Position numbers and translations under genes: made by a program. This document shows positions 1-14,155 of a stretch of DNA of 64,000 nt, piece after piece. Source of the DNA: Hymenobacter aerophilus DSM 13606 (GTDB lineage Bacteria > Bacteroidota > Bacteroidia > Cytophagales > Hymenobacteraceae); contig NZ_KB907800.1 in NCBI RefSeq assembly GCF_000382225.1, forward strand, positions 62,001 to 126,000, written 5' to 3'. Under the pieces are notes generated by a model, which was not told the origin of the DNA, ran no database searches, and worked only from the letters and a program-made list of their open reading frames with translations. Position 1 is the stretch's first letter. Each line of letters opens with the position of its first letter.

Positions 1-306
1 GCCCAGTACCGCGTGCCCCCGCACAAAAACCTGAGCACCGATTTCCACGTGTTTTCCGCCGTCTGGACGCCCACCGAAGTGACTTTCTACCTCGACCGGC
101 GCAAATTGCGCACGGTGCCGGCCAGCCAGGTGCCCACCCGGGCCTTCCCCGCCACCATCATCGTCAACCAGGCTGTGGTGTCGTATGCCGATGTAAGCAC
201 CTGGCCCGTCGGCCCCACCGGACCCTACAGCAGCCTGGTCGTGGATTACATTAAAGTGTACAAGCTACGGGCGACGCTGCCTGCCCCAGCCCGGTCGAAG
301 CCTTGA
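1..306 (+). CDS. Glycoside hydrolase family 16 protein, C-terminal fragment (5' end outside window)
   Basis: The frame is open from base 1, so the start lies upstream of the window. About 100 residues are visible. They match the end of a GH16 (laminarinase/beta-glucanase-like) jelly-roll: a FHVFSAVW segment, a strand ending in FYLDRRKL, and a closing DYIKVYKL strand. Family members cleave beta-1,3 or beta-1,3-1,4 glucans or related galactans outside the cytoplasm. The catalytic ExDxxE motif would lie upstream and cannot be checked, so substrate and activity are unknown. The last 15 residues are Pro/Ala-rich and lie past the domain; there is no T9SS domain after it. A strong hairpin follows 27 nt after the stop. 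Confidence 0.75.
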   Translation, partial: AQYRVPPHKNLSTDFHVFSAVWTPTEVTFYLDRRKLRTVPASQVPTRAFPATIIVNQAVVSYADVSTWPVGPTGPYSSLVVDYIKVYKLRATLPAPARSKP

Positions 307-333
307 GCCGGTTTCGGCCACGCCCTCAGCCCA

Positions 334-378
334 ACAATGCCCCGGCTTCTGCTACTTACGCAGAAACCGGGGCATTGT
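334..378. terminator. Bidirectional hairpin between convergent genes
   Basis: A perfect 12-bp arm pair (334-345 and 367-378, core CAATGCCCCGG) extends inward with one mismatch and encloses a short loop. It lies between the GH16 stop and the stop of the convergent L,D-transpeptidase gene, so it could end both transcripts. There is no long T-run on either side. Confidence 0.6.
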
Positions 379-400
379 CGGATTAGCCAGGAAGTTGAAG

Positions 401-1240
401 CTAAATGAGCTGGTTGCCGCCCAGCAGCGTGTTCACGGCCACATCCTGGTTGAGGTATTTGGAAGAGTAGCGGCTGTCGGGGCCGTTGATGAACATAGCC
501 GTCTGGCCGCCGATGGCTTCGATGATGGCGTCCTTCTGGTCCATGGGCAGGGCCGGGCAGCCGAGGCTGCGGCCCAGGCGGCCATTCTGCCGGATAAACT
601 CCTCGCTCACGTAATCGGCGCCATGCATGACCACGGAGCGCATCAGGGCGTTGGTATTGTAGCCCTCATCGAGGCCGGCCAGCTTCAGCGAGCGGCCATG
701 CTTGCCCACATATTCACCTTCGGTTACGTAGAAGCCCAGGCTGCTTTTGTTCGACTCGTTTTCGTTGGAGAAGGTGGTGGCCACGTTTTCGCCCGAGTTG
801 CGGCCGTGCGCCACCAGCGTGTGGAACTTCACCTGCTTGGCTTCCAGATCAAGCACCCACAGGCGCTTTTCGGTGGAAGGCAAACTGAAATCGACGACGG
901 TGAGCAGCTTTTTGTCGCTGAGCTTATCGGTTTCTTCCAGGTTGAGGTAGCCGGTCATGGCCTTCTCGAACACTTCGAAGGTCAGGCCCTGCTGCTCCAC
1001 CTGCAGGTCGCGGTACAGGTCGCGCACTTTCTGGTCGAAGAGCTGGGCTTTGGAAACGACCACCGGCGCCGGGGCCGGCAGATGCAGTTTGGAGCCGGCC
1101 GCCGCGGCCTTGGAGCGCGTAACCGGGGCCGCCATGGGCGTAGCCATAAACAGCGCCGCCACGAACGGCAACACCCGCCGAGCCAGACGGCGCGACTTCA
1201 ACTTGAGCCGCTGACGGCGAACCACACTTGTATTTTCCAT
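401..1240 (-). CDS. Murein L,D-transpeptidase catalytic domain family protein (YkuD_2 type)
   Basis: A 279-residue protein using the ATG at 1240 (MENTSVV); the frame extends further upstream but without conserved sequence. An Arg-rich N-terminus is followed by a hydrophobic stretch (VLPFVAALFMATPMA), a signal peptide or anchor. The YkuD_2-type domain contains an early GYLNL block, VVDFSLPSTEKRLWVLDL, AHGRNSG, a His in MHGADY (about H206) and the Cys in SLGCPALP (about C228), expected to be the catalytic pair. Family members are predicted to act on peptidoglycan cross-links, but few have been tested. A second copy of the same family lies directly upstream on the same strand, so this is probably a paralogous pair. 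Confidence 0.85.
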   Translation of the reverse strand: MENTSVVRRQRLKLKSRRLARRVLPFVAALFMATPMAAPVTRSKAAAAGSKLHLPAPAPVVVSKAQLFDQKVRDLYRDLQVEQQGLTFEVFEKAMTGYLNLEETDKLSDKKLLTVVDFSLPSTEKRLWVLDLEAKQVKFHTLVAHGRNSGENVATTFSNENESNKSSLGFYVTEGEYVGKHGRSLKLAGLDEGYNTNALMRSVVMHGADYVSEEFIRQNGRLGRSLGCPALPMDQKDAIIEAIGGQTAMFINGPDSRYSSKYLNQDVAVNTLLGGNQLI

Positions 1241-1410
1241 CTTCACAGGTCGTTTCAGTTGCAGAAATTCGGTTGCGAAACAGGCCCCACCGCGCACGGC
1301 AGGCCTGGTTATCAGTTTATACGCAACCGCCTAAAACCCGGACGCACGGCGTCGCAAATTTGGGGTGCTGGTGTTATAACATAGCGTTTGCCGAATTGAT
1401 TCCGCCCGGC

Positions 1411-2265
1411 CTATTGCCAGCCCTGCATCGCCAGCCGCCGCGCCGCGCCGGAAGCATCGAGCCACTTCGACTCGGCGCCGGGGCCGCTGAGGTAGAGGCA
1501 GCCGCCTTCGCCCACGGCCCCGATGATGGCCCGGTACTGGTCGGGCGGCAGGGCGGGGCAGCCGCGGCTGTTGCCGGCCTGGCCGTGGCGCTGCAGATAG
1601 GCCGGGCTCACGTAATCGGCGCTGTGCAGCACCACGTAGCGGCGCAGGGCATTGTCGTTCTGGCCCGCATCAAGGCCCCGCAGGCGGCGCGACAGGCCGT
1701 GCTTGCCCCGGTAGGTGTCCTGGGTGCGGTAGAAACCCAGCGCCGTGCAGGCCGATTTGATGGTGTTGGAGAAGCGCCGGGCGCGCAGGCCCTCGCCCGA
1801 GCCGCGGCCGTGGGCCACAGGACTGCGGTGCAGCACCTGGCCGGCCCGCAAATCGAGCACCCACAGCCGCGGCTCTGAGGAAGGCAAATCCATATCGACC
1901 ACGGCCAGCACGCCGGGGCGGCTGATGCGGCCGGCCTGCCGCAGGTTGAGGTAGCCCACGCAGGCCCGCTCCAGCACTTCGGGCCGCAGCGCGGCTGCCT
2001 GTGGGCCTAAACTGGCGTGCAGCCCGGCCACGGCCGCGCGCAGCTCGGGCGACAAATCGGGCAATGGTGCCAGTGGCGTGGGGGCCAGTGAATCAGTCTC
2101 TGCCGGCAGCGCCGCCGGAGTTGGCACCGCTGCCGGAGCCACCAGTGGTACTCGGGCGGCCGCTACCTCGCCGCCCGCCGACTGGCAGCCGGCCCCTACC
2201 CCGGCCAGCCCCAGCAGACTCAGTAGCAGAACGGGGAGGCGGAAAAGGGAGGCGGAATGTTTCAT
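1411..2265 (-). CDS. Murein L,D-transpeptidase catalytic domain family protein (YkuD_2 type), second copy
   Basis: 284 residues from the ATG at 2265 (MKHSASLF). The start is chosen because a signal peptide follows at once: a hydrophobic core, then GVGAGC, a possible but non-ideal lipobox. A Pro/Ala-rich linker of roughly 60 residues separates it from the catalytic domain. Shared landmarks with the downstream paralogue are GYLNL, VVDMDLPSSEPRLWVLDL, AHGRGSGE, the His in LHSADY (about H214) and the Cys in SRGCPALP (about C236). The protein is probably periplasmic, perhaps lipid-anchored. The 170-nt gap to the next copy shows no obvious terminator, so the two could be co-transcribed. Confidence 0.85.
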   Translation of the reverse strand: MKHSASLFRLPVLLLSLLGLAGVGAGCQSAGGEVAAARVPLVAPAAVPTPAALPAETDSLAPTPLAPLPDLSPELRAAVAGLHASLGPQAAALRPEVLERACVGYLNLRQAGRISRPGVLAVVDMDLPSSEPRLWVLDLRAGQVLHRSPVAHGRGSGEGLRARRFSNTIKSACTALGFYRTQDTYRGKHGLSRRLRGLDAGQNDNALRRYVVLHSADYVSPAYLQRHGQAGNSRGCPALPPDQYRAIIGAVGEGGCLYLSGPGAESKWLDASGAARRLAMQGWQ

Positions 2266-2350
2266 GCGTAGCGGGTGGTTCGGGCCCAAAATCCGCATTT
2301 CCGTCGCCGGATGCAAATAAAGATTACCGCGAAGCCTTATCAACATTCAC

Positions 2351-2386
2351 AAAAAAGGCCGCTTCCCGATATGGAAAGCGGCCTTT
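2351..2386 (-). terminator. Rho-independent terminator
   Basis: An 11-bp stem (2354-2364 and 2376-2386, core AAAGGCCGCTT) is followed on the minus strand by a run of six T. It starts 5 nt after the stop of the small ORF at 2391-2600 and probably ends the receptor cluster transcript. Confidence 0.8.
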
Positions 2387-2390
2387 GTAG

Positions 2391-2600
2391 CTACCAGCGC
2401 TTAGCCGAGCTGTGCGGCGCCGAGCGGGCGTGGGTGCGGCAGCGGGCCTGGGCTTTTACCTCCTGCTGCCGCTGCCGGGTGCCCGGCGGCAGTGGCGGTG
2501 GGGCGCCAACAGCGGGCGAGGGCGTAACAGCCGGGCTGGTCAGGGCCTGGCGGATGATAGCCTGGGTATCGGCGGAGTTCTGAAAAACGGAGAAAGACAT
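2391..2600 (-). CDS. Small hypothetical protein (69 aa)
   Basis: The short frame starts at ATG 2600 (MSFSVFQNSADTQ). It lies between the TonB-dependent receptor stop and a clear terminator on the same strand. The product is a helical N-terminal segment followed by a Pro-rich middle and a basic C-terminus (RQRQQEVKAQARCRTHARS). It has no signal peptide, membrane segment or domain I recognise. Its position between a receptor gene and that gene's terminator is the main argument that it is real. It could also be non-coding 3' UTR. Confidence 0.4.
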   Translation of the reverse strand: MSFSVFQNSADTQAIIRQALTSPAVTPSPAVGAPPPLPPGTRQRQQEVKAQARCRTHARSAPHSSAKRW

Positions 2601-2687
2601 GGTACAGAAAAATAAGGATGAAAAATGGCCCGGAACGGGCACCTGCCAGGTGCGGCGGGCTACAAAGCCCGCCCTCAAGCGGCCAGC

Positions 2688-4976
2688 CTAGAAAAACAGG
2701 CTGGCGTTGAGCTTGGCGTAGAAGGGCGTGCCGGGTGTGAAGTGCAGCTCCGACACGGGAGCCGCCTCGTTGCGCAAGCGGGTGGTCGTATCAAATTGGG
2801 CCTGATTCCACTCCACATTCAGCAGGTTTTCGACGGTGGCACCCACCTGGAAACGGCTTTTCGTGTAACTCACGATGGCATCGAGCAGAAAGTAGCCCCG
2901 GGCCCGCACCGAGTTGTCCTCGTTGGCCGCCCGCGAGTCGATGTGGCGGTAGCGCAGGCTGGCGCCGAGGCCGCCGGGGGCCCGCAGGGTGAGGCCACCG
3001 ATGCTGGTGAGGCTGGGGGCCAACGGAATCCGGTTGGCCCCGTCGGGCTCGTCTACCAATCGGCCGCGGCTCAGGTTCAGGTCCACGTCGGCGAAGAGCA
3101 GGCGCGTGAGCTGGTAGCGGGCCGAGAGGTCGAGGCCCAGGCGGCGGGTGCGGCCGGCGCTTTCCACTACGCCCTCGTCGCCCACATACACCAGCTCGTC
3201 CTGCAAATGCAGGGCCCACAGCGCGGCATTCACCACCAGCGCGGGCACCGGCTTGAAGGTGCCGCCCACCTCGTAGCCAATGGCGCGGGGCAGCACGTTG
3301 GCCGTGGCGTTGGTGACTACAGCCCGGGCATCGTTGGAGTGGAAGCCCAGGCCCGAGCGCACAAACAGCTGCACGGCCGGATTTACATCGTAGTACAGGT
3401 TCAGCTTGGGGCTGATGCGGCCCTTGCCGGCCTTGCCCGAGGCCGAATCGGCGGCCGCCCGGTCTTCGTGGAAAGCAAAGCGGAAGTAATCGGCCCGCAG
3501 GGCGGCGTTGAGCGTAAGCCGGTCGGTGAGGCCCAGCGTGCCTTCGAGGTAGCCGTTGACGTTCTGCTCGTACACCCGGCCCGAGCGAATGGTATCGATT
3601 ACCGTGCGACGCACCGCGTTGCGCAGGGCAATGTGCGTGTCGTCGAGGCGGGTGCCCAGGCCGGCCACGGTGCGCAGCGTGCGGCTACCCAGCTGGAAGT
3701 CGCGGCTGTAGGTGCCGGTGTAGCCGTAGAGGTTGCGCGCGTCGGTCTGCCGGATTTCGTCGCCAGATAACGGGTTGTTCAGGAAGAACGTGAAGTTGGA
3801 GTACAGGTTGAAATCGTAGCGCGTGTAGTACACCTGCTGGCGCAACACGGCGTTGTGGGGCAGGTCGGTGGTGAGCACGGCCGTGGCGTTGGTGCGGCTG
3901 GTGGAGCCGCCCTCGCTGGGGTCGATGCTGCCGAAGCGCGAAATCGTGCCGTTTTCCACCCCGCGCTCCGGAATCTGGCCCGAGGCGTCCCACTCCGAGC
4001 CGAACTGCGAGCCGAGCACCATCAGCGAGGTGCGGTCGGAGAGCTGGCCGGTGTACTTGGCCAGGCCGTTGAAGCGCCTGAAATCCTGCTTGGCGTCGAA
4101 GTACGAGTTGGTGAAGTAGTACTCGCCGGCCACGTAGGCGGCGGCCGGCCGCTGGCCCGCGGCCCGCACCGGCAGCAGGTTCACCAGGGCCACTGCCCGG
4201 TAGGTATCAAACTGGCCCACTTCGAACTTTACCTGGCTGCGGTCGAGGCGGGTTTTGGTGGTGAACTCGCCCGCGCCGGCGGTGGCAAAGTCGCCGAACC
4301 GCGCCGTGTAGGGGCCCTTATACACCCGCAGCTGGTCGACCGTCTCCGGTATCACGAAGTGGAAATCGGCGTAGCCCTGCCCGTGGGCGTGGCTGACCAT
4401 GTTCACCGGCAAGCCATCAATGCTCACGTTGAAGTCGGTGCCGTGGTCGGCGTCGAAGCCGCGCACGAAAATCTGCTCGGCCTTGCCGCCGCCCGCGTGC
4501 TGGGCAATCACCAGGCCCGGCACCAGCGGCAGCAGGTCCTGCGCCGAATTAACGGGCCGCAGCAGCTTGTCGATATTTGAAATAACGGCCAGCGACTGGT
4601 TGGGGTCGCGGGGCTGCGACACTGTCACTTCTGACAAAGCCAGCGAGGTGGTGGGCAGGCGCAGCGCCACCGCGGCAGTCTGGCCGGCGGCAACGGTTAC
4701 GGTTTGCTGGCGGGCGCCGTAGCCCAGGCCCGCCGCCTGCACCACGTAGGTGCCGGCCGGCAGGCCCGTAAGCCGGAACCGGCCCAGTTCGTCGGCCACG
4801 GTGGCAGCGCCCACCCGGTCGAGTACCCGCACGTTTACCCCGCTCAGGGGCCGGCCGGAAGCCGAATCGGCCACGGTGCCGCGTAGCACGGCGTTGCTTT
4901 GAGCGTGGGCTTCGGGCCCGCACGCCAGCGCCGCCAGCACCGTGCCGGTTGCGGTTATCCAATAAAAAAGGCGCAT
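2688..4976 (-). CDS. TonB-dependent receptor with carboxypeptidase-regulatory-like N-terminal domain
   Basis: 762 residues from ATG 4976 (MRLFYW). A signal peptide ends near AHAQ. A carboxypeptidase-regulatory-like beta-sandwich follows (about 28-110), then a plug domain (about 130-230) and a 22-strand-type barrel ending in an aromatic residue (SLFF), as expected for an outer-membrane protein. The plug is unusually His-rich: H160, H178, H196, H198 and H206, in DADHGTD and SHAHGQGYADFHF contexts. This may mark a metal-related receptor subfamily. The ligand is unknown and there is no SusD partner, so it is not a glycan-utilisation pair. A small secreted protein, a HupE/UreJ protein, a TPR protein and a DUF4331 protein lie upstream on the same strand. 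Confidence 0.9.
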   Translation of the reverse strand: MRLFYWITATGTVLAALACGPEAHAQSNAVLRGTVADSASGRPLSGVNVRVLDRVGAATVADELGRFRLTGLPAGTYVVQAAGLGYGARQQTVTVAAGQTAAVALRLPTTSLALSEVTVSQPRDPNQSLAVISNIDKLLRPVNSAQDLLPLVPGLVIAQHAGGGKAEQIFVRGFDADHGTDFNVSIDGLPVNMVSHAHGQGYADFHFVIPETVDQLRVYKGPYTARFGDFATAGAGEFTTKTRLDRSQVKFEVGQFDTYRAVALVNLLPVRAAGQRPAAAYVAGEYYFTNSYFDAKQDFRRFNGLAKYTGQLSDRTSLMVLGSQFGSEWDASGQIPERGVENGTISRFGSIDPSEGGSTSRTNATAVLTTDLPHNAVLRQQVYYTRYDFNLYSNFTFFLNNPLSGDEIRQTDARNLYGYTGTYSRDFQLGSRTLRTVAGLGTRLDDTHIALRNAVRRTVIDTIRSGRVYEQNVNGYLEGTLGLTDRLTLNAALRADYFRFAFHEDRAAADSASGKAGKGRISPKLNLYYDVNPAVQLFVRSGLGFHSNDARAVVTNATANVLPRAIGYEVGGTFKPVPALVVNAALWALHLQDELVYVGDEGVVESAGRTRRLGLDLSARYQLTRLLFADVDLNLSRGRLVDEPDGANRIPLAPSLTSIGGLTLRAPGGLGASLRYRHIDSRAANEDNSVRARGYFLLDAIVSYTKSRFQVGATVENLLNVEWNQAQFDTTTRLRNEAAPVSELHFTPGTPFYAKLNASLFF

Positions 4977-5107
4977 AGTGCAGCCGTATGGCAACGCGCC
5001 GCGCCGGGCTTTTGGCCCACTGGCAACGCGTCTAAGTCAGAAAATAAGTTGATACCGGCCCCGCATACGGCGCGGCCTGCGCCGCCCTATGCGGGCGGCG
5101 GCTCAGC

Positions 5108-5497
5108 TTATCCCCAACGGGGCGGCTGCTCCGGAATCAGCCGGATGCCGGCTGCTACGGCCGGCTCGGTGGCCGGGTGGTACAGCACAAACTGCCGGAA
5201 GCGCGCCGTTGGCAGACGGAGCGGCACTTCGGACAGGCAATGCAGGTCGATGCTTTTGGCCGATGCCAGCAGCTGGGCCGTGGTGTGGGTCCGGGGCTGG
5301 GCCTGCACCGCCAACTGGTCGCCGTTGCAGGTATCGAAGCAGTCGAGGCGCAGGTAGTTTTCGTGCTGGCAGGCGGCGCTGTGCACGTAGGGGTTCGCAG
5401 CCGTAGGGCCCGGCGCCTCGGGCCGCCCCACCAGACCCGCACCGATGCCTCCCAGGTAGGGTAGCAAAAGCAGCAGCAGGAGCAGGTGGCGGAGCAT
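5108..5497 (-). CDS. Small secreted Cys-containing hypothetical protein
   Basis: 129 residues beginning MLRHLLLLLLLLPYL, a clear signal peptide or anchor. The mature part has four Cys (C43, C53, C57, C87) and scattered His, in AACQHENY, LDCFDTCNGD and DLHCLSE contexts. This suits disulfides or metal binding in the periplasm. I do not recognise the family. It lies about 130 nt upstream of the receptor gene on the same strand and downstream of the HupE/UreJ-like gene, so it may be an accessory of that transport locus. Function unknown. Confidence 0.6.
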   Translation of the reverse strand: MLRHLLLLLLLLPYLGGIGAGLVGRPEAPGPTAANPYVHSAACQHENYLRLDCFDTCNGDQLAVQAQPRTHTTAQLLASAKSIDLHCLSEVPLRLPTARFRQFVLYHPATEPAVAAGIRLIPEQPPRWG

Positions 5498-5521
5498 TGG
5501 TGATTTGGTGATTTAGAAAAG

Positions 5522-5625
5522 GAACGTCATGCTGAGCGCAGTCGAAGCATCTCTACCGCAATGGTAACCTTATCGACTGCAACGAAGCGGTAGAGATGCT
5601 TCGGCTGCGCTCAGCATGACCGTTC
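5522..5625. repeat. Long intergenic palindrome, GTCATGCTGAGCG type
   Basis: Arms of about 38 nt (5522-5559 and 5587-5625) differ by one substitution and one indel and enclose a loop of about 27 nt. The outer end reads GAACGTCATGCTGAGCG. The same kind of arm recurs at 12354-12458 and 35613-35714. It lies between the HupE-like gene and the small secreted gene. Confidence 0.85.
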
Positions 5626-5654
5626 TTTTTCATTTCCTTTCTGTTCGATTTGAT

Positions 5655-6365
5655 TCAACTCAGTCGTTCAAAAGTCCAGTAGGCGGCCATGAGGGCAATA
5701 ACTACCGAGGCGGGCACGAGTACCCGGCGCTTGTACCAGGGCTTGCCGGCGGCCCAGCGGCCAATCAGCAGCCAGGCCAGCAGTATTACCGAAACCTGCC
5801 CCATTTCTACCCCAATATTAAAAGCTACCAACGACTCGGCAAACATATTCGGCGGCAGCCCCAGGCCCGTGAGGGCACCGGCAAAGCCCAGCCCGTGCAG
5901 CAGCCCGAACCCGAACACCACCACAATGCGCCACGGATTCAGGCGCTCGACCACGATGTTTTCGATGGCCACGAACAGAATCGACAGCGCAATCAACGGC
6001 TCAATCAGGCTGGCCGGCGGCGATACGACCCCGTAAATGGCCATTCCCAGCGTGATGGAGTGCGCCACCGTGAAGGCCGTAGCCTGCCAGAGCACCGGCT
6101 TGAGGCGCGGCTCCAGCAGGTATAAGCTCAGCACGAACAGCACGTGGTCGAGGCCCAGCGGCAGAATGTGGGTGTAGCCGAGCTGCAGGTAGGTGAGGAA
6201 AATATCGGTGCGCGAGAGTTTGCTTAAATCCACATCGAGCACGTGCGCGCCGGCCGTTGCTGGCACCAGCAGCAGCACGGCAATCAATGGCACATAGCAA
6301 ACGAAGCGGGCAGCGCGCATGCGTGGTTTGAGGTTAAATTTCAGGAGCGGCCTGATACCGTTCAT
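5655..6365 (-). CDS. HupE/UreJ family membrane protein
   Basis: 236 residues from ATG 6365 (MNGIRPLL), 20 nt after the TPR gene; ATG 6320 (MRAARF) is an alternative that leaves a compact signal peptide ending TAGAH. Several membrane helices follow. The diagnostic block HILPLGLDH (H66, D73, H74) matches the HPxxGxDH-like signature of HupE/UreJ proteins. Further His lie in TVAHSITLG (H102) and FGLLHGLGFAG (H157). Characterised relatives move or help insert nickel or cobalt, but this PF13795-type branch is uncharacterised. No urease or hydrogenase genes are nearby, so metal specificity is only inferred. Confidence 0.8.
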   Translation of the reverse strand: MNGIRPLLKFNLKPRMRAARFVCYVPLIAVLLLVPATAGAHVLDVDLSKLSRTDIFLTYLQLGYTHILPLGLDHVLFVLSLYLLEPRLKPVLWQATAFTVAHSITLGMAIYGVVSPPASLIEPLIALSILFVAIENIVVERLNPWRIVVVFGFGLLHGLGFAGALTGLGLPPNMFAESLVAFNIGVEMGQVSVILLAWLLIGRWAAGKPWYKRRVLVPASVVIALMAAYWTFERLS

Positions 6366-6385
6366 TTTTTCAGCAAGCCCCGCCC

Positions 6386-7711
6386 CTACCGCACGGCCAG
6401 CAGCTGGCGGCCTTCCTCGGCAAGGTCGATTCGTAGATAAGGGTTGATGGCCAGGGCCTGCCTGATGAGGGCCTGCCCTTCGGCGGACTGGCCGTTTTTG
6501 GAGGCAATCAGGCCGGCGCGGCACAGCAGCACCGGGCTTTGGGAGTTGGTGCGGCGGGCCGCTTTCATATAGGTAGCGGCGGCCGGATAGTCGCCGCGCT
6601 TGTACGCCACCCAGGCCAGGGTTTCGTTCACGTCGATGTTGTCCGGACGGCGGTCATATTCAATTTTGGCGTGGGCCAGGGCTTTGTCCAGCTCCCCGGT
6701 TTTGAGGTAGGCATAGGCCAGCTCACGGTCGGCGTAGTGGCCCAGGTCCTCGTTCTCGTCGGCCTCGTTGGCGGCCGAGGCAAGCATGTCAATAGCTTCC
6801 GCTTCCATTTTTTTGGCTTCGGCGGGTTGCTGGTTGAGACGGTAGAGGTCGGCCAGCTCGTCGGCAAAGGCGTAATCCTTTACCGTGTTGCGGGCCTGCT
6901 CCAGGTACTTGATGGCCGCCGGATAGTTCTGGCGGGCCTGCTCGACGCGGCCGAGTCCGGCCAGTGCGTAGGCGTAGTACGGCCGGGCTGCCAGGGCCGT
7001 GCGGTAGGCCCGCTCGGCGTTGGGCAGGTCGCCGGTGGTTTCGTAGAGGTGGCCCAGCGTCACGCGGGCCCACTCGGTTTGCTCCAGGCCTACGTAGCCG
7101 GCCTGCACGGCCATTTGCATGGCCTCGATGGCGCCGGGCAGGTCGCCGTGGATTTCGCGCAGGTACGATACGCGCGAGTAGGAGCGCAAATCGGGGCGCA
7201 CGGCGTTCATCTTGTCGGCCATTTTGATGGCCTCGGCGTAACGGCCCAGCTCCACGTTGGCGTCGCAGAGCAACCCGTACACGAAAGCGTTGTTGGGGTT
7301 GATGGCCACGGCTTTCTCCGCCACGGCCAGCCCCTCCGAAAAGTGGTGCTGGGTCAGGCTCAGCGAGGCCTTGCAGCACAGGGCCTCGAAGTTCTCGGGC
7401 TCAGCTTGCAGCACTTCATTCAGCAGCTGCATGGCGGCCGTGTCGTAGTACGGGTGGTCGCCGGTTACGCGGGCTTCCTGCATGTAGGCCTGGGCCAGCA
7501 GCACTTTGGATTTGGTGTCGTCGGGCTTGGCGCGCAGCCTGGCCAGCAGGCCCTCAATGGCGGCCTTGGTGTTCAGCCACTCGCCTCCGGCCGCCAAATC
7601 GCCACGACGCTCGCGCAGTTGCGGCACGGGCTCGGGCTTTTGGGTCAGGAAGATGGCAGCCGCGGCGGCCACAAACAGCACCAGCAGCAAGGGGTAAAGG
7701 TATTTTCTCAC
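6386..7711 (-). CDS. Membrane-anchored tetratricopeptide repeat protein
   Basis: 441 residues if translation begins at GTG 7711 (VRKYLYPLLL). This start is preferred because a transmembrane/signal segment (LYPLLLVLFVAAAAAIFL) follows immediately and because two hairpins lie just upstream; the frame stays open to 7852. The rest is a run of TPR units, for example residues resembling ALCCKASLSLTQHHFSEGL and AYRTALAARPYYAYALAGLG. It is a helical scaffold probably facing the periplasm. TPR proteins mediate protein contacts, so it may tie together products of this cluster. It lies between the DUF4331 and HupE-like genes. Confidence 0.85.
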   Translation of the reverse strand: MRKYLYPLLLVLFVAAAAAIFLTQKPEPVPQLRERRGDLAAGGEWLNTKAAIEGLLARLRAKPDDTKSKVLLAQAYMQEARVTGDHPYYDTAAMQLLNEVLQAEPENFEALCCKASLSLTQHHFSEGLAVAEKAVAINPNNAFVYGLLCDANVELGRYAEAIKMADKMNAVRPDLRSYSRVSYLREIHGDLPGAIEAMQMAVQAGYVGLEQTEWARVTLGHLYETTGDLPNAERAYRTALAARPYYAYALAGLGRVEQARQNYPAAIKYLEQARNTVKDYAFADELADLYRLNQQPAEAKKMEAEAIDMLASAANEADENEDLGHYADRELAYAYLKTGELDKALAHAKIEYDRRPDNIDVNETLAWVAYKRGDYPAAATYMKAARRTNSQSPVLLCRAGLIASKNGQSAEGQALIRQALAINPYLRIDLAEEGRQLLAVR

Positions 7712-7777
7712 AGCGGACAGCTTAAGCAGGCGGAAGATACTCGGAATCGGGCGGGCGCCAGTTGGGCGGGCGCAAGC

Positions 7778-7906
7778 AAGGGAACCGACCGCAAAGCCGG
7801 TTCCCTTCTCCACGGACAACAGGATAGCCGGACTCACCCAGGGCCCGGCCATCCGTACGCCGGTCGGCGGCCGGCATCGGCCGCTAGAGCCGCTCCGGCC
7901 GCCGAC
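7778..7906 (-). terminator. Two hairpins between DUF4331 and TPR genes
   Basis: The first, 7 nt after the DUF4331 stop, is a perfect 12-bp GC-rich stem (7863-7874 and 7895-7906). The second is a perfect 10-bp stem (7778-7787 and 7798-7807, AAGGGAACCG). Neither has a good T-run, so they may attenuate or protect mRNA rather than end transcription fully. Confidence 0.5.
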
Positions 7907-7912
7907 GGGCGG

Positions 7913-10003
7913 TTACTGGTTGTGAACCAGTTTCATGGATTGCAGCACGGTTTTTCCCGTGGCAATGGTCAGCACGTAGGTGCCGGCCGCCACTTCGGCG
8001 CCGGGCTTCCAGTCGAGGCTGTACTTGCCTACTTTGTGCGTTTTGCCCTCCATCAGCGTTGCCACGCGGCGGCCCGTCAGGTCGCTCACAAACATGGTGA
8101 GCGGCGTTTTGGTGGCCACTTCGTAGGTTACCTTGGTGCTCGCGTTGAACGGATTCGGGTAGTTCTGGGCGGCGGCTACAATCTCGGGCTTCAGGCTGAA
8201 GCCAACGGCGCCACGTTGCGCGGTAATCGTGGTCTGGGCCTTGGTGCCGGCCCAGGGCAGCTGCATGTAGGGGAAGCCGGCCCGGAAGGTAGTGTCGTTG
8301 CTTTCGATGCCGGTGCGGAACGTCACGGCGCCGGTCAGGCCCGGCGAGCCGGCCTCGTAGGGCAGGCCAATGGCCGCCAGCACGATACCACCCACGGCCT
8401 GTAGCTCGATGCGGGTCACGTCGTCTTCGAGGCGGCGGCCGTTGGGGAAGCCGTCCATGTTCGGGATGAACTCCAGCTTGGTGCTGGTGTTGTAGCGCGC
8501 GTCGTTCAGGCCCAGCACGGCGGCGGCCAGCAGGCCTTCCGAGCTGAAGTCGGCCGAGTTGCGCGGCGTCGTCGGCACGGCCATGTTCAGGCGCAGCATG
8601 TCGCCGCCCACGCCAGCCGGGGCACCCACGTTGTCAATTAAAGGCAGGAAGTTGTTGACGAACGGCTTACCCGGCGCCAGCGGCTTGCCGGTGGGCTTGC
8701 CCGTAGCCAGCTGATAGGGCGCCACGTTGGGCACGCCGGTATGGAAGATGGGCAGAATGTCTACCGAGCGGGGCTTGCCGGGGCGCAGCAGGTATTCGGC
8801 GTAGCCGCCGTCGGCTACTTTGGCGAATGCTGTACCGGCCACATCGGCGGCCGGGGCGTTCAGCAGGGCCGACACACCATTTTTGCCGTTGGCAAAATCG
8901 AACATACCCAACGAGTTGCGCTGAATGCGCAGCTGGGCAAAACCGGGTACCGACGTACCGTAGTAGCCGTCGCCCTCGGCCATGTACAGGCCCAGCTCGG
9001 GGTTCGAGAGGTAGTCTTCGGTGCTGGTCTGCTCGGTGTAGGGGGTGCCGTAGTTCCAACGGTCCTTCGAGCCGATGGGCTGGATTACCTCGTTGAGCAG
9101 CGGCATGCCCAGGCGCGACACCTGCACCCAGGTGCCACTGTGCTCCTGCGTGCCATCGGTGGTGCTGATGGTGCGGATGGACTGGCGGCTGGCCGAGGCC
9201 CACACGCCGATGATGTAGTTGGGGTCGAGGATGTTGGCGGCAGCGGCGGCTTTCTTGCCTTCCTTCTGCAGCTTGGCAACCGGAATCTGCAACGCAATGG
9301 TATGCGTGTTTTTACGAGCCAGGCCGTCGCGGGCCGCCGCCGTGCGGATACCGCCCAGGTCGAAAATACCGCCCAGATCAGCGAAAAACGGGTCGTCGAC
9401 GGGTCCGCAGAACACCTTGATGTCGCCATCCACCGTCTGAATGGCGCCGGTAAACAGGCTCTCGTAGCTCGGGGCCTTCAGGCCGGCCGCCCCGGTAATG
9501 GAGCGCGGGCCGATGTTGTTGGGCGGCACTACCCCGTTGCTTTTCAGCGTCGTGAAGGCCCCGCCGTTCACGCTGCGCTCCATGGTGTAGGTGGCCTTCA
9601 GGTTCTGCTTGCCCAGCCGGATGTTGAAGAACGTGGTCGGGTCTTCATTTTCCCGCTTGAAGGTGAAGCGGTAGGTGATGTCGTCGGCGTTAGGTTTGCT
9701 GCCGTCGTTTTTGATGTGGATTTCGTAGCGCACGTTCTCGCCGAACGTGTTGTAGTTGGGGCCGCCCTGGGGCAGCTCCAGCGGAATATAGTTGGCGATG
9801 ATGTTGACCATTTCCCCGTCGTTGGGGTCGCGGAAGGCATACACGTCGGTGTTGTCGGCCAACGGGTCGTCGGCAATTAGTGGCGCCTCGCGGTGGCTCG
9901 ATGCTTCGAGCGGCGTGTGCTGGGCGCTCCAGGCCAGCAGCCCGGCCACGGTAGTGGCCGCCAGCGCGATGGGCAGAATGGGGCGGGTAAGAAATTTGGG
10001 CAT
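7913..10003 (-). CDS. DUF4331 family protein with T9SS type A C-terminal sorting domain
   Basis: 696 residues from ATG 10003 (MPKFLTRP), followed by a signal peptide (ILPIALAATTVAGLLAWSAQ). The DUF4331 domain opens with the typical ASSHREAPLIADDPLADNTD and spans most of the protein, including VYAFRDPND and YEIHIKND. The last 80 or so residues start at NYPNPFNASTKV and end with TYVLTIATGKTVLQSMKL, a textbook type A sorting domain that directs export by the type IX system and removal of the tail. The protein should therefore be on the cell surface or secreted. DUF4331 has no established biochemical role. It is the first gene of the minus-strand cluster reaching the TonB-dependent receptor. Confidence 0.9.
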   Translation of the reverse strand: MPKFLTRPILPIALAATTVAGLLAWSAQHTPLEASSHREAPLIADDPLADNTDVYAFRDPNDGEMVNIIANYIPLELPQGGPNYNTFGENVRYEIHIKNDGSKPNADDITYRFTFKRENEDPTTFFNIRLGKQNLKATYTMERSVNGGAFTTLKSNGVVPPNNIGPRSITGAAGLKAPSYESLFTGAIQTVDGDIKVFCGPVDDPFFADLGGIFDLGGIRTAAARDGLARKNTHTIALQIPVAKLQKEGKKAAAAANILDPNYIIGVWASASRQSIRTISTTDGTQEHSGTWVQVSRLGMPLLNEVIQPIGSKDRWNYGTPYTEQTSTEDYLSNPELGLYMAEGDGYYGTSVPGFAQLRIQRNSLGMFDFANGKNGVSALLNAPAADVAGTAFAKVADGGYAEYLLRPGKPRSVDILPIFHTGVPNVAPYQLATGKPTGKPLAPGKPFVNNFLPLIDNVGAPAGVGGDMLRLNMAVPTTPRNSADFSSEGLLAAAVLGLNDARYNTSTKLEFIPNMDGFPNGRRLEDDVTRIELQAVGGIVLAAIGLPYEAGSPGLTGAVTFRTGIESNDTTFRAGFPYMQLPWAGTKAQTTITAQRGAVGFSLKPEIVAAAQNYPNPFNASTKVTYEVATKTPLTMFVSDLTGRRVATLMEGKTHKVGKYSLDWKPGAEVAAGTYVLTIATGKTVLQSMKLVHNQ

Positions 10004-10480
10004 GATAAAAAGGGTAAAGGATGGAAAAAGAACCGGCCACCACGGCCGGCACAGCGGATAGGACCTCGCAAAAGAGGTCTGCAAGACAAGCGCAACAGGG
10101 CCCCAGAAAGGCCCGATATAAAGAGTTCCAGGCGTGGCCGGGCGGCCGCGTGTGGCTTTTGAATAAGCGCGGCAGTAAGGCCCGCAGAAAGCTTACGCGG
10201 CCGAATTCAGCCGTGGATTTAAATAATCATAATTATGCACACTTATTTCACACAAAAACGCAACCTAAACGCTATGGTCTGATTTACAGGCAACCGTAGG
10301 GGCTTTTTCTTATGAATCTGGCAAACAAGCGAGTAGTGTCGGGCTTCAGACCAACCGGGCCGGGAGCTGACCGTGCCGGACTTTTGTTGCGTAATTTTGG
10401 CTCTTTCCGGCCGGCCGCTGTTGTAAGTGCTGGTCCTTCTCCGTCTCTGCTCTCCGCGTGGCCCCGCCGCGCCTTCTTCT
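10004..10480. other. Divergent intergenic region, 477 bp
   Basis: No gene is supported here; short frames lack conserved features. It separates the divergent DUF4331 and hscA genes and so should hold both promoters. An AT-rich patch lies at about 10215-10255. A TAATTTTG box occurs upstream of hscA; no equally clear box was found for DUF4331. Confidence 0.6.
10392..10399 (+). promoter_or_regulatory. Candidate -7 element for hscA
   Basis: TAATTTTG matches the Bacteroidota TAnnTTTG consensus and lies about 80 nt before the hscA start. No convincing TTG box lies 19-21 nt upstream, so support is moderate. Confidence 0.45.
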
Positions 10481-12343
10481 ATGGCTAAAGTTGCAATCAA
10501 CCTTTCTACCGGCAGTATTCAGCAGGAAGAAATCATTGTGGGTATTGATCTGGGCACCACCAACTCGCTGGTGGCCTACATCCACCCCGAAAACCGCCAG
10601 CCGCTGGCCATCAACGACCAGGGCCGCGGCGCCATCGTGCCCTCCGTGGTGCACTTCCCCGGCGGAGGCCAGGACCCGCTGGTGGGCACCGAGGCCAAGG
10701 AATACCTGCTGACTGACCCGCAGAACACGATTTACTCGGTGAAGCGGCTGCTGGGCAAGAGCTACCACGATCTGACCCAGCACGCCGACGCGCTGGGCTA
10801 TAAGGTGATTGACGACAACTCAGAGGGCCTAGTGAAAATCCGGGTCGGCGACCGGTTCTACTCGCCCATTGAGCTGTCGGCCGAAATTTTGAAAGAGCTG
10901 CGCGAGCGGGCCGAGCACTCGCTCAAAACGCCCGTCAACAAGGCCGTTATCACGGTGCCAGCCTACTTCAACGACTCGCAACGCCAGGCCACCCGCGACG
11001 CCGGCCGGCTGGCGGGCCTGGAGGTGCTGCGCATCGTGAACGAGCCCACGGCGGCGGCGCTGGCCTACGGTATCGGCCTGAACCCCGACGAAGAAAAGAC
11101 CGTGGCCGTGTACGATTTGGGCGGCGGCACCTTCGACGTGAGCATTCTGAAGCTGCACCAGGGCATTTTTGAGGTGCTCAGCACCAACGGCGACACCTAC
11201 CTGGGCGGCGACGACCTCGACCGCGCCGTAGCCGAGCACTGGACCGCGCAACACAACCTGACGGTCCAAGTGGCCGCCAACGACTCGCTGCAGCAGGAGC
11301 TGCGGCTGCTGGCCGAATCGGCCAAGCGCTACCTGAGTCAGCACGACGACTTCGCCGGCAACCTCGGCGACGACGTGGTAGTGCGCCTCAGCCGCGCCGA
11401 GTTCGACGAGTTGGCCCGCCCGCTGGTGGAGCGCACCATAGCCTCGTGCCGCCGCGCCCTGGCCGATGCCGGTCTGAAAGCGGAGCAACTCGACGCCGTG
11501 CTGCTGGTGGGTGGCTCGACGCGAGTGCCGCTGGTGCACGAGTCGGTATCGAAGTTTTTCGGGCAGCCGGCCAATAGCTCCCTCAACCCCGACGAAGTGG
11601 TGGCGCTGGGCGCGGCCATTCAGGCCGATATTCTGGCCGGCAACCGCCGCGACGTGCTGCTGCTCGACGTAACGCCGCTCACGCTGGGCATCGAAACCCT
11701 AGGCGGCTTGATGGACCCGATTATCCCGCGCAACTCCAAAATTCCGACCAAGGCCGGCCGCCAGTACACCACCAGTGTGGACGGGCAGGTGAACCTGAAG
11801 ATTTCGGTGTACCAGGGCGAGCGGGACGTGGTGAAGGAAAACCGCAAGCTGGCCGAGTTCGATTTGCGCGGCATCCCGGCCATGCCCGCCGGCCTGCCCA
11901 AGGTTGATGTCAACTTCATTCTGAACGCCGACGGCATTCTGAAAGTAGAGGCCCTGGAATTGCGCTCCGGCACCCGCCAGGAGGTCGAAATCAAGCCCCA
12001 GTACGGCCTCACCGACGAGCAGGTGGAGCAGATGCTGATGGACTCGCTCACTCACGCCCGCGAAGACGTAGCGGCCCGCATGGTGATTGAGGCCCGCACC
12101 GTAGCCGAGCAGATGCTCTACCAGGTGGAGCGCTTCGTGACGAAGAACGGCCAGCACCTCACCGCCAACGAGCTCACCCAAACCCAGGCCGGCGTCGAGA
12201 AGCTGAAACAGTCTTTGCTGACCCAGGAAAAAGACACGATGCTGAAAGCTGTAGACGAGCTGGAAGAACTCACCCGCCCCTTCGCCGAGCGCGTGATGAA
12301 TATCAGCATCAGCGAGGCCATGAGCGGGAAGAAGATTGAGTAG
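10481..12343 (+). CDS. hscA: Hsp70 chaperone of the HscA type
   Basis: 620 residues from ATG 10481 ([14 protein letters not shown]). It is an ATP-driven chaperone with the actin-like ATPase fold: [15 protein letters not shown] (phosphate 1), [15 protein letters not shown] (phosphate 2) and [13 protein letters not shown] (adenosine). The substrate-binding domain begins near [17 protein letters not shown]. The N-terminal extension before the first motif, the NTISVKRLLG-like region and the [11 protein letters not shown] block fit HscA better than DnaK, and the length is close to the usual 616. HscA assists Fe-S cluster transfer from the scaffold. No hscB, iscU or ferredoxin gene is visible nearby, so the client is uncertain. 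Confidence 0.85.
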
Positions 12344-12353
12344 TGCGTGAACG

Positions 12354-12458
12354 AAAACGTCATTCAGAGCGAAGTGAAGAATCTCGCGTGCCAAAGCAAT
12401 CCCGACGTTGGGTTACTTTGGCACGCGAGATTCTTCGCTTCGCTCTGAATGACGTTTT
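12354..12458. repeat. Long intergenic palindrome, GTCATTCAGAGCG type
   Basis: Arms of 43 nt (12354-12396 and 12416-12458) differ at one position and flank a 19-nt loop. The outer end (AAAACGTCATTCAGAGCG) is related to the palindromes at 5522 and 35613. The element begins 11 nt after the hscA stop; its right arm carries a false ATG at 12449 in frame with anmK. Confidence 0.9.
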
Positions 12459-12484
12459 TGCTCCCTCTACTTAGACCTAACGCC

Positions 12485-13702
12485 ATGCATCGCCTCGCCC
12501 AACTTGCCCAGCAGCCCAGCCGCCGGATTATCGGCCTGATGTCGGGTACCTCGCTCGATGGGCTCGATGTGGCGCTGTGCCGCCTGCACGGCCACGGCCC
12601 GGACACGCGGCTGGAGCTGGAGCATTTTGCCACGGTGCCTTACGATGAGGAATTCCGGCGGCGGGTGCGGCAGGTATTTGCCCGCGAGCAGGTGAGCCTG
12701 GAGTACCTGACGCTGCTGCACGCCTGGCTGGGCCGCGAGCACGCCCGCATGGTGCTGGATTGCCTGCGCGCGTGGCAGGTGGCCCCGGCCGAAGTCGACC
12801 TGCTGGCCAGCCACGGCCAGACGGTGTACCACGCCCCCGCCCATCAGCACCAGCACCCCGATTTCCCCGGTCTCAACGCCACCCTGCAGCTCGGCGACGC
12901 CGACCACCTGGCCGTAGGTACCGGCATCATCACCGTCGGCGACTTCCGGCAGAAGCACGTGGCCGCTGGCGGCGAAGGCGCACCGCTGGCCACCTACGGC
13001 GACTTCCTACTACTCAGCAGCCCAAACGAAGAGCGCCTGCTGCTCAACCTGGGTGGTATTGCCAACTTCACCTATCTACCCCGCACCGACGCCGCCAGCG
13101 CCCAAACCAAGACTGCCAGCGCCGCTTTCAGCACCGACACCGGCCCCGGCAACACCCTGCTCGATGCTGTAGTGCGGGCGCACTTCCCACAACTGGCATT
13201 TGACGAGGGCGGCAGGTTGGCCGCCGCTGGGACTGTGCACGCTGGGTTGCTGGCCGAACTGCTGGCCCAACCGTTCTTCGCCGCCTCGCTACCCAAAACC
13301 ACCGGCCCCGAACTGTTCAGTCTGGCCTACCTCCACGCTGCCCAGACCCGCACCGCAACGTTCGACTTGCCAGTTGAAGACCTGCTGGCGACGCTGGTGG
13401 AGTTGAGCGCAACGGGCGTGGCGCAAGCGGTACGGCTGGCCCTGGGCGAGCAGCCGGCCGTGGCCGTGTATGCCAGTGGCGGCGGCGCGCATAATCCCGT
13501 ACTGATGGCTGCGCTGCAGCGCCATTTGCCCGCCTGCCGGTTTGCCAGCACCGCCGAGTTGGGCGTGCCGCCCGATGCCAAGGAGGCCATTCTGTTCGCA
13601 CTGCTGGCCAACGAAGCTGTGGCCGGACAGCCCATTAGCATCGGGGCCGGCCGCCAGCGCGTGCCGGCTATCCGGATGGGCAAAATCTCGCTGCCAGATT
13701 AA
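12485..13702 (+). CDS. anmK: Anhydro-N-acetylmuramic acid kinase
   Basis: 405 residues from ATG 12485 (MHRLAQLAQ). The in-frame ATG at 12449 is rejected because it sits inside a palindromic repeat. The enzyme phosphorylates and opens 1,6-anhydro-MurNAc to MurNAc-6-phosphate during cell-wall recycling. Family signatures are the phosphate-binding IGLMSGTSLDGLDVALC near the start, ASHGQTVYHAP, the LGGIANFTYL strand, DTGPGNTLLDA, and YASGGGAHNPVLM near the end. The length suits the family (about 370-400). Confidence 0.93.
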   Translation: MHRLAQLAQQPSRRIIGLMSGTSLDGLDVALCRLHGHGPDTRLELEHFATVPYDEEFRRRVRQVFAREQVSLEYLTLLHAWLGREHARMVLDCLRAWQVAPAEVDLLASHGQTVYHAPAHQHQHPDFPGLNATLQLGDADHLAVGTGIITVGDFRQKHVAAGGEGAPLATYGDFLLLSSPNEERLLLNLGGIANFTYLPRTDAASAQTKTASAAFSTDTGPGNTLLDAVVRAHFPQLAFDEGGRLAAAGTVHAGLLAELLAQPFFAASLPKTTGPELFSLAYLHAAQTRTATFDLPVEDLLATLVELSATGVAQAVRLALGEQPAVAVYASGGGAHNPVLMAALQRHLPACRFASTAELGVPPDAKEAILFALLANEAVAGQPISIGAGRQRVPAIRMGKISLPD

Positions 13703-13723
13703 GTACGGCGCACGTTTCCTTAC

Positions 13724-14155
13724 TTATTGCACTTTCACTAGCCGGTAGCTCTGCACCAACCGGGCGGTAGAATCCTGGAAGCTGACGTCGAGCTGGAAGT
13801 GCGGGCGGGCAGCCAGCGTATCGGCGCGGAAGCTGTAGGCCACGAAAGTTTCGGGTGCGGCCGTGTCGCGCAGCCGGAAACCCAGCTTGTAAAGGTCGAG
13901 GACAGGGCCGAACTGGCGCACCAACCCGCGCAGGGGCTGTAAGGATTGCCGGAACTGCTTCTCGTTGAGCTGGGCCTGAGCGGCGGGGCTCAGCTTGGTA
14001 TAAGCCTGTCGCCAGTCCTGCCCCACGGCGGCCAGCCAGAACTGCCGCGCCACCTGCACCTGCGAATTTACGCGCTGCTGGGCCAGCCCCGGCACGGCCA
14101 GCAGCAGGCAAGCAGCCAGCAGGGCCACTTTCCCTGCACCAGTTTGGATTCGCAT
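13724..14155 (-). CDS. Secreted hypothetical protein
   Basis: 143 residues with a clean signal peptide (ALLAACLLLAVPGLAQQ). The mature domain, about 120 residues, begins with a helix (VARQFWLAAVGQDWRQAYTKL) and ends in beta strands (FQLDVSFQDSTARLVQSYRL). This resembles the layout of NTF2-like or DUF4019-like proteins, but the match is weak. It starts 11 nt after the division-protein gene, so it is probably the last gene of the enolase-ftsB transcript. Function unknown. Confidence 0.65.
   Translation of the reverse strand: MRIQTGAGKVALLAACLLLAVPGLAQQRVNSQVQVARQFWLAAVGQDWRQAYTKLSPAAQAQLNEKQFRQSLQPLRGLVRQFGPVLDLYKLGFRLRDTAAPETFVAYSFRADTLAARPHFQLDVSFQDSTARLVQSYRLVKVQ

Follow-up and report, generated by a model that had tools for sequence, protein, structure and literature searches.

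Hemophores are secreted metal-capture proteins which deliver to TonB receptors. The ten TonB receptors of the nickel/cobalt (Ni/Co) type examined here from Proteobacteria, associated with NikR or a B12 riboswitch (e.g. C. necator pHG1), are accompanied by NikR, HoxN, hydrogenase or cobalamin genes. Two papers describe the HupE/UreJ permeases as nickel or cobalt transporters (PMC7689651, PMC4284471). The present analysis concerns a cluster of six open reading frames (ORFs) on the minus strand at 2391-10003 of a 64,000-nucleotide stretch, hereafter the window, of Hymenobacter aerophilus DSM 13606 (contig NZ_KB907800.1, positions 62,001 to 126,000). In order of transcription the cluster encodes a DUF4331 protein with a type IX secretion system (T9SS) tail, a tetratricopeptide repeat (TPR) protein, a HupE_UreJ_2 protein, a small protein with four Cys, a TonB-dependent receptor and a small ORF. 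DUF4331 (PF14224) is a widespread surface-protein domain of unknown function, and our literature search found no paper naming DUF4331 or PF14224. We read the cluster, with a probability of about 0.5, as an envelope-spanning acquisition system of the nickel/cobalt type, most likely for Ni(II) or a small Ni(II) complex, in which DUF4331 would be an exported metal-binding partner.

The window receptor belongs to a common clade with the proteobacterial Ni/Co receptors, but is surrounded by DUF4331, TPR, HupE_UreJ_2 and Cys protein genes where theirs stand with NikR, HoxN, hydrogenase and cobalamin genes. With SusCD glycan loci the cluster has in common a TonB receptor carrying a CarboxypepD_reg domain, but no SusD was found among ten proteins scanned (the cluster and its neighbours), in agreement with the preliminary description of this DNA, and a SusCD glycan locus was rejected. 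As for hemophores, DUF4331 would be alike in the proposed working principle only.

The genes of the cluster are linked in many other Bacteroidota. DUF4331 is present in 48 of 395 genomes drawn across the phylum and in 48 of 61 genomes of the genus; 36 of the 48 DUF4331 genomes of the phylum draw supplied stretches no longer than 20 kb, and a second set consisted of named loci, of which 69 of 80 extend 2 kb or more downstream. One of the two same-strand genes next after DUF4331 is a TPR gene in 31/36 phylum-draw and 57/69 named loci, compared to a background of 17/871 for other genes. When five same-strand genes and at least 6.5 kb downstream are considered (31 phylum-draw and 48 named loci), a TonB receptor follows in 17 and 29 loci respectively. 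The DUF4331-TPR linkage is strong, the receptor linkage is common and HupE is frequent but optional. Even where DUF4331 is split into two short ORFs, as in 14 genomes, a TPR gene is nearby in most and a receptor in many. The best named relatives are Hymenobacter genomes, with a DUF4331 identity of up to 85% (best segment). The order DUF4331-TPR-HupE-Cys-receptor is observed in 9 of 13 Hymenobacter-titled loci (L106, L107, L108, L168, L170, L171, L174, L175 and L180); of the remaining four, L109 displays DUF4331-TPR-HupE, L110 and L144 DUF4331 only, and L179 TPR-HupE-Cys-receptor ahead of further DUF4331 frames.

These counts are to be read with the DUF4331 labelling profile evidently having also caught some proteins that are not DUF4331 proper, and with L040 scored as a miss, a 412-residue frame having outscored its split DUF4331 genes, though its map has a TPR gene beside them; the two sets also partly overlap, L048 and L133 for example being probably the same genome. 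The cluster is a recurrent module across several phyla rather than an accident of the host genome, and the co-occurrence outside this genome on which the preliminary description had staked its proposal is indeed found. Tandem DUF4331 genes are frequent (L047, L140, L164 and others), the second copy sometimes lying in a frame of 1,260-1,530 residues with a long extra part. An extracytoplasmic function (ECF) sigma factor gene with an RskA-type anti-sigma gene occurs within nine genes in 12/30 phylum-draw and 3/43 named loci; such pairs are seen near DUF4331 in Bacteroidota-side loci (L039, L054, L059 and others) and in Pseudoalteromonas (L096), and the Hymenobacter maps shown carry no ECF/RskA label beside the operon.

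DUF4331 matches were also found on 34 plasmid records, of which 11 neighbourhoods were examined. One of the 11, an Adhaeribacter plasmid, is itself from Bacteroidota and carries DUF4331 and TPR genes, with a receptor of the operon type in two pieces on the opposite strand. Genes for DUF4331, for a protein that is TPR or TPR-like and for HupE_UreJ_2 share one strand in Pseudoalteromonas, Comamonadaceae, Lichenicola and Marinobacter, with one small gene between DUF4331 and TPR in all but Lichenicola; the TPR matches of Comamonadaceae and Lichenicola fall under the Pfam cut-offs. By profile, an unannotated Variovorax plasmid shows the DUF4331, TPR and HupE arrangement too. A Streptomyces plasmid has DUF4331, TPR and, in the place of HupE, a transporter of the NicO family (36.9 bits, cut-off 27.7), and Miltoncostaea has DUF4331 and TPR. 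The plasmid TPR count of 5/11 does not include L096, L098 and L102, whose divergent TPRs were found by domain scans. The Streptomyces region (L101:7878-17296) contains two DUF4331 genes, the TPR and NicO genes and a class F sortase gene, and its first DUF4331 protein terminates in a hydrophobic tail that is Arg-rich at the end. On three Rhodobacterales records (L097, L099 and L104) DUF4331 lies directly beside type II secretion system (T2SS) genes, and in two cases an A24 prepilin peptidase gene adjoins it as well; since DUF4331 adjoins type II secretion genes there, this suggests that it is a T2SS cargo in Rhodobacterales.

The evidence for the ligand class comes from the TonB-dependent receptor (2688-4976, minus strand; PF00593 barrel, PF07715 plug and PF13715 CarboxypepD_reg; the listed frame starts at TTG 4994). 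Alignment of 25 receptors, including that of the window, shows five invariant plug histidines (166, 184, 202, 204 and 212) and delimits a plug segment (4251-4520, minus strand) with the signature DHGTD...SHAHGQGYADFHF, the form common to the operon receptors being DHGTD...SHAHGQGYADxHF. At E <= 0.001 this segment is the only match in the host genome. A branch supported at 95/94 in the tree of 47 receptors sets 22 operon rows, together with 9 Ni/Co-context rows, apart from 16 others, and the operon rows L049 and L065 group among the Ni/Co rows; the tree left out a tenth Ni/Co relative (split in L195), and several of the 16 others are long-branched. The HGQG part of the plug signature follows the same division, being present in 22/22 operon rows, 8/9 Ni/Co rows and 0/16 others.

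Searched with the plug, 49 plasmid records were retrieved, and ten proteobacterial neighbourhoods were picked by hand. All ten hold nikR, HoxN, hydrogenase or cobalamin genes. NiFe-hydrogenase and HoxN genes are near the receptor in C. necator pHG1 and Bradyrhizobium, nikR in Methylomagnum, Comamonadaceae, Polymorphobacter and Methylocystis, nikR with hyp genes in Afipia and nikR with HoxN in Paraburkholderia. In Novosphingobium, HoxN lies behind a receptor gene carrying an upstream cobalamin riboswitch, and in Methylorubrum a cobalamin riboswitch opens the gene run of the receptor, with cobalamin genes nearby. As controls, five hand-picked neighbourhoods of a siderophore-receptor family contain neither a gene annotated as nikR, HoxN, hydrogenase or cobalamin synthesis nor a cobalamin riboswitch. 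Further metal genes occur near some of the relatives, namely a heavy-metal P-type ATPase in L187, a zinc ABC transporter and a CopC-family gene in L190 and a MerC-domain gene in L192. Judged by the genes that adjoin the relatives examined, the ligand class with the best support is nickel/cobalt, and at the level of the family the window receptor is best read as being of the Ni/Co type.

The HupE/UreJ_2 protein (5655-6365, minus strand) points to the same class of metals. It matches PF13795 with 158.2 bits, well over the cut-off of 24.5, and its AlphaFold2 model has seven helices and a mean predicted local distance difference test (pLDDT) score of 90.5. In common with HupE/UreJ permeases (PF04955, PF13795) it has the PF13795 match and a predicted mature N-terminal His (A|H), but it lies beside no hydrogenase or urease gene. 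Its conserved H-x6-D-H motif (HILPLGLDH) differs from the HPXXGXDH given for HupE in PMC7689651, the spacing being one residue longer, with G and DH in register. Several His, Asp and Glu positions are invariant among 23 aligned HupE sequences, and most of these proteins are predicted to start with Ala-His after a signal-like segment. No solved relative was found by sequence at E <= 1, and the fold search gave no Foldseek match at E <= 0.001; the best structural match of the model (Z 8.7, root-mean-square deviation (rmsd) 7.3, 171 residues) is within the range of common helical arrangements. In two loci a DUF6702 gene adjoins hupE (L056:7446-7943 and L176:6144-6656), and because of this position DUF6702 may stand in for an additional domain that the longer HupE proteins of Proteobacteria carry at their N-terminus.

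The small protein with four Cys (5108-5497, minus strand), secreted or anchored, matches no Pfam or NCBIfam family, and the NCBIfam family HYC_CC_PP, considered as a candidate, gave no match. Genes similar to it are found in 12 of 83 loci searched (best E 3e-45), and in related loci they occupy the corresponding place. A His-rich small ORF takes this position ahead of the receptor in several other loci of Bacteroidota; the four-Cys protein is the Hymenobacter-type variant of a small gene before the receptor. To judge from their sequences, the Cys motifs in Hymenobacter, or the His-rich motifs elsewhere, would suit a passage of metal. The TPR protein (6386-7711, minus strand) exceeds the Pfam cut-offs for TPR_2, TPR_19, TPR_14 and others and has, as read from its sequence, one N-terminal membrane segment.

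DUF4331 itself is encoded at 7913-10003 (minus strand, 696 residues), and the window gene is the single DUF4331 match in the host genome. PF14224 covers the full length of the protein with 416.9 bits, and the C-terminus (7916-8194, minus strand) is a T9SS type A sorting domain according to TIGR04183 (31.9 bits, cut-off 23), PF18962 reaching 19.3 bits, under its cut-off of 27. The AlphaFold2 model of residues 35-696 (pLDDT 85.0, predicted template-modelling score 0.80) gives a consistent picture at this end, since residues 553-662 superpose on PorU (Z 11.2, rmsd 2.2, 91 aligned), 576-661 on the C-terminal domain of mirolase (Z 9.6, rmsd 2.3, 77 aligned) and 570-662 on PorZ (Z 9.2, rmsd 3.1, 84 aligned). 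All 50 VIA rows among the matches listed fall in residues 553-662, i.e. the C-terminal Ig-like sorting domain, and the five Foldseek matches at E <= 0.001 span 90-135 alignment columns each, so that the DUF4331 core is barely covered. By sequence, the only solved structures retrieved were two antibody chains (E 0.47 and 1), taken as chance. A phage or viral origin of DUF4331 was also considered and rejected, one pattern-based scan of IMG/VR having given no confirmed relative. Taken with the receptor and its His-rich plug, the HupE/UreJ-type protein, the anchored TPR protein and the four-Cys protein, the DUF4331 protein with its T9SS signal completes a set of components that the preliminary description had named correctly.

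At the other end of the protein, the motif SSHREAP (9881-9901, minus strand) is invariant across 17 sequences from Bacteroidota, Pseudomonadota and Actinomycetota. An N-terminus of the form X-X-His is the arrangement of the amino-terminal Cu(II)- and Ni(II)-binding (ATCUN) sites, and a cut before SSHREAP, placed there by rule, would leave the predicted mature protein beginning with Ser-Ser-His, a candidate site for Cu(II) or Ni(II). The residue before the motif is A, S or G in 158 of 158 occurrences, and 138 of these satisfy a simple criterion for a hydrophobic stretch that ends nearby. As the search pattern fixed HR[ED][AS]P, only the two residues before His and the upstream context are tested by these figures, which represent 154 distinct segments out of 200 frames, one further frame being uncounted with its motif too near the start. 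The other 41 frames without motif comprise 14 of a short form, and the rest lack the DUF4331 N-terminus or are weak matches. Thirteen of the 14 short forms have ADH at the place of the motif, and the remaining one has GDH.

For the acquisition system we infer, with its direction of transport, protein contacts and metal, the following route. DUF4331 would leave by Sec and the T9SS to the cell surface, where it would bind metal, partly through the mature N-terminal Ser-Ser-His in ATCUN fashion, and pass it to the TonB receptor. The receptor would carry the metal over the outer membrane by way of its His-lined plug, and the small Cys-rich protein, elsewhere His-rich, would receive it at the inner face. 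The HupE-type permease would then take it across the inner membrane, with the anchored TPR protein possibly serving as a scaffold. The preliminary description had proposed the uptake of a metal or small ligand with DUF4331 as the surface component, and this holds as far as a conserved envelope-spanning unit and metal handling with an exported DUF4331 are concerned. A bolder and doubtful version would have DUF4331 act as a protein "nickelophore", its N-terminal Ser-Ser-His, or Ala-Asp-His in the short split form of the same phylum, capturing Ni(II) or Cu(II) and feeding the cell. Export and receipt would then be specific to each lineage: Bacteroidota would use the T9SS and the TonB receptor, Proteobacteria type II secretion or HupE loci, and Streptomyces a sortase-neighboured DUF4331 gene with NicO.

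Several observations weigh against a nickel/cobalt acquisition system. The host genome has no match to urease (PF00449) or NiFe-hydrogenase (PF00374) and none to the LarA or CobN families, and nickel superoxide dismutase (Ni-SOD) was not found in a search made without a positive control. Nor does DUF4331 track urease among 61 congeners (urease in 32/48 with DUF4331 and 10/13 without it, p = 0.74). A scan of ten proteins around the cluster showed no nikR-type gene, and positions 1-14000 of the window contain no riboswitch, the twelve matches up to E = 1 all lying below the gathering scores. HupE is in the same-strand run in only 8/31 phylum-draw and 24/48 named loci, the receptor is missing from the run in 14/31 and 19/48, and the three Rhodobacterales plasmids have no annotated TPR or HupE gene beside DUF4331. 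The ten receptor contexts were selected from 49, and two come from plasmids already known for hydrogenases. Furthermore, the X-X-His terminus would depend on the cleavage site chosen: left unguided, a cleavage rule puts His at +3 in only 50/162 DUF4331 ORFs, against 8/440 unlabelled ones, and in some short forms it places the cut one residue further on, with His at +2.

The statement of the preliminary description that the locus contains no urease or hydrogenase gene is extended to the whole genome by these searches; its further claim, that the cluster does not fit a nickel-enzyme locus, agrees with their outcome but has to be set against the ten of ten picked receptor relatives that adjoin Ni/Co genes. 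The missing nickel enzymes leave either another use of the metal, or a different metal, or DUF4331 itself as the user. Riboswitch control of the operon was rejected in the related loci as well, no Rfam family reaching its gathering score in 15 further loci (7 + 8). Of the two cobalamin riboswitches in the host genome, neither lies within the window.

If DUF4331 were the user, it would be an extracellular metalloenzyme or redox protein, with the TPR, HupE and receptor supplying or recycling its metal, and this would explain a Ni/Co-type system in a genome without the nickel enzymes tested. Indeed, H37, R38, E39, D50, D53, R297, N304, E305, K313, R412, D415, R471, N473, N521, R523, R524, D527 and D528 are invariant in the 17 sequences, which come from three phyla, and so many polar residues exceed the needs of a simple N-terminal metal-binding tail. 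The ECF/RskA pairs, frequent in the phylum draw (12/30) but present in only 3/43 named loci, would fit a regulated surface activity. However, no catalytic fold was recognised, though the fold search barely covered the DUF4331 core, and there is no obvious need of a TonB receptor to metallate an extracellular enzyme, which makes us regard this explanation as rather unlikely.

The remaining explanations keep DUF4331 as a binding protein or loosen the cluster. A system for another transition metal, such as copper or zinc, would agree with the candidate Ser-Ser-His terminus, as ATCUN sites bind Cu(II) tighter than Ni(II), with the four-Cys small protein, Cys- or His-rich small proteins suiting copper too, and with the DUF6702 genes beside hupE in L056 and L176. 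It is nonetheless improbable, as HupE and NicO are Ni/Co families and the receptor relatives examined adjoin nikR, HoxN, hydrogenase or cobalamin genes, if in some cases other metal genes too. Detoxification or storage, with DUF4331 and the small protein binding excess metal and HupE and the receptor serving homeostasis rather than nutrition, would be compatible with a host that has none of the known nickel enzymes tested. It would also recall Sphingobium sp. ba1, where according to PMC5557971 a HupE/UreJ-like gene and several TonB-receptor genes are up in nickel-rich medium. We nevertheless give this explanation little credence, as the ten scanned proteins of the cluster and its surroundings include no RND, CDF or P-type ATPase efflux protein; moreover, TonB receptors import. 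Finally, DUF4331 and TPR as one unit, with hupE, the Cys gene and the receptor as loosely attached neighbours, would suit the large shares of loci from which HupE or the receptor is missing and the gaps in the window (some 200 nt from DUF4331 to TPR, 157 nt from hupE to the Cys gene, where the inverted repeat lies, and 131 nt from the Cys gene to the receptor), but is very hard to reconcile with the full five-gene order in 9/13 Hymenobacter loci and the renewed association of DUF4331, TPR and HupE in other phyla.

Regarding the layout of the cluster, the probable starts read from the sequence are ATG 10003 for DUF4331 (TTG 10084 in the ORF list), GTG 7711 for TPR (listed frame to 7852), ATG 6365 for hupE, ATG 5497 for the Cys gene, ATG 4976 for the receptor and ATG 2600 for the last ORF. 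This small ORF (2391-2600, minus strand) is listed with a TTG start as 2391-2678 and would encode about 69 residues from ATG 2600. It is probably a real small gene of the close clade, because relatives sit 3' of the receptor in four close loci only, L106, L107, L108 and L180 (E 3e-17 to 3e-8). A terminator-like hairpin (2345-2392, minus strand; -25.3 kcal/mol, z -5.1), equalled in stability by 1 of 200 shuffles, ends the cluster. A simple terminator pattern scan leaves this hairpin unlisted and lists a different site of terminator type, which separates the receptor gene from the small one; the scan gave 13 such sites, versus 8.4 (sd 2.8) in shuffles.

The gap between hupE and the Cys gene holds a near-perfect inverted repeat (5527-5619, no strand assigned; 33-bp arms at 5527-5559 and 5587-5619, one mismatch), whose hairpin has a folding energy of -71.4 kcal/mol (z -11.5). 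Only the two arms of the repeat match each other in the window, and over half of the twelve sub-threshold riboswitch matches lie on it. It looks like an inserted repeat-like element, because the gap of 157 nt exceeds the 75 nt of the relative L106. Beside DUF4331, an Hsp70 gene (10427-12343) runs divergently, the same being observed in nine named and three further loci of the genus. Two neighbouring YkuD_2 L,D-transpeptidase genes (401-2346) lie directly downstream of the cluster, and such genes are downstream of the operon in several relatives too. With the ORF list, the Hsp70 neighbour and the hairpin at 2345-2392, the six-gene minus-strand cluster is confirmed as it had been delimited at the outset, by a divergent gap and a terminator.

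An acquisition system of the nickel/cobalt type raises the question of the use of the metal in a genome with no urease, NiFe-hydrogenase or LarA match. If DUF4331 did act as a nickelophore, hosts without known nickel enzymes would have an unrecognised metal use, perhaps by DUF4331. The linking of DUF4331 to TPR proteins, Ni/Co-type permeases and a receptor of Ni/Co context across phyla gives this domain a concrete and testable function and, if the acquisition reading is true, DUF4331 would be a marker for nickel/cobalt acquisition in Bacteroidota.

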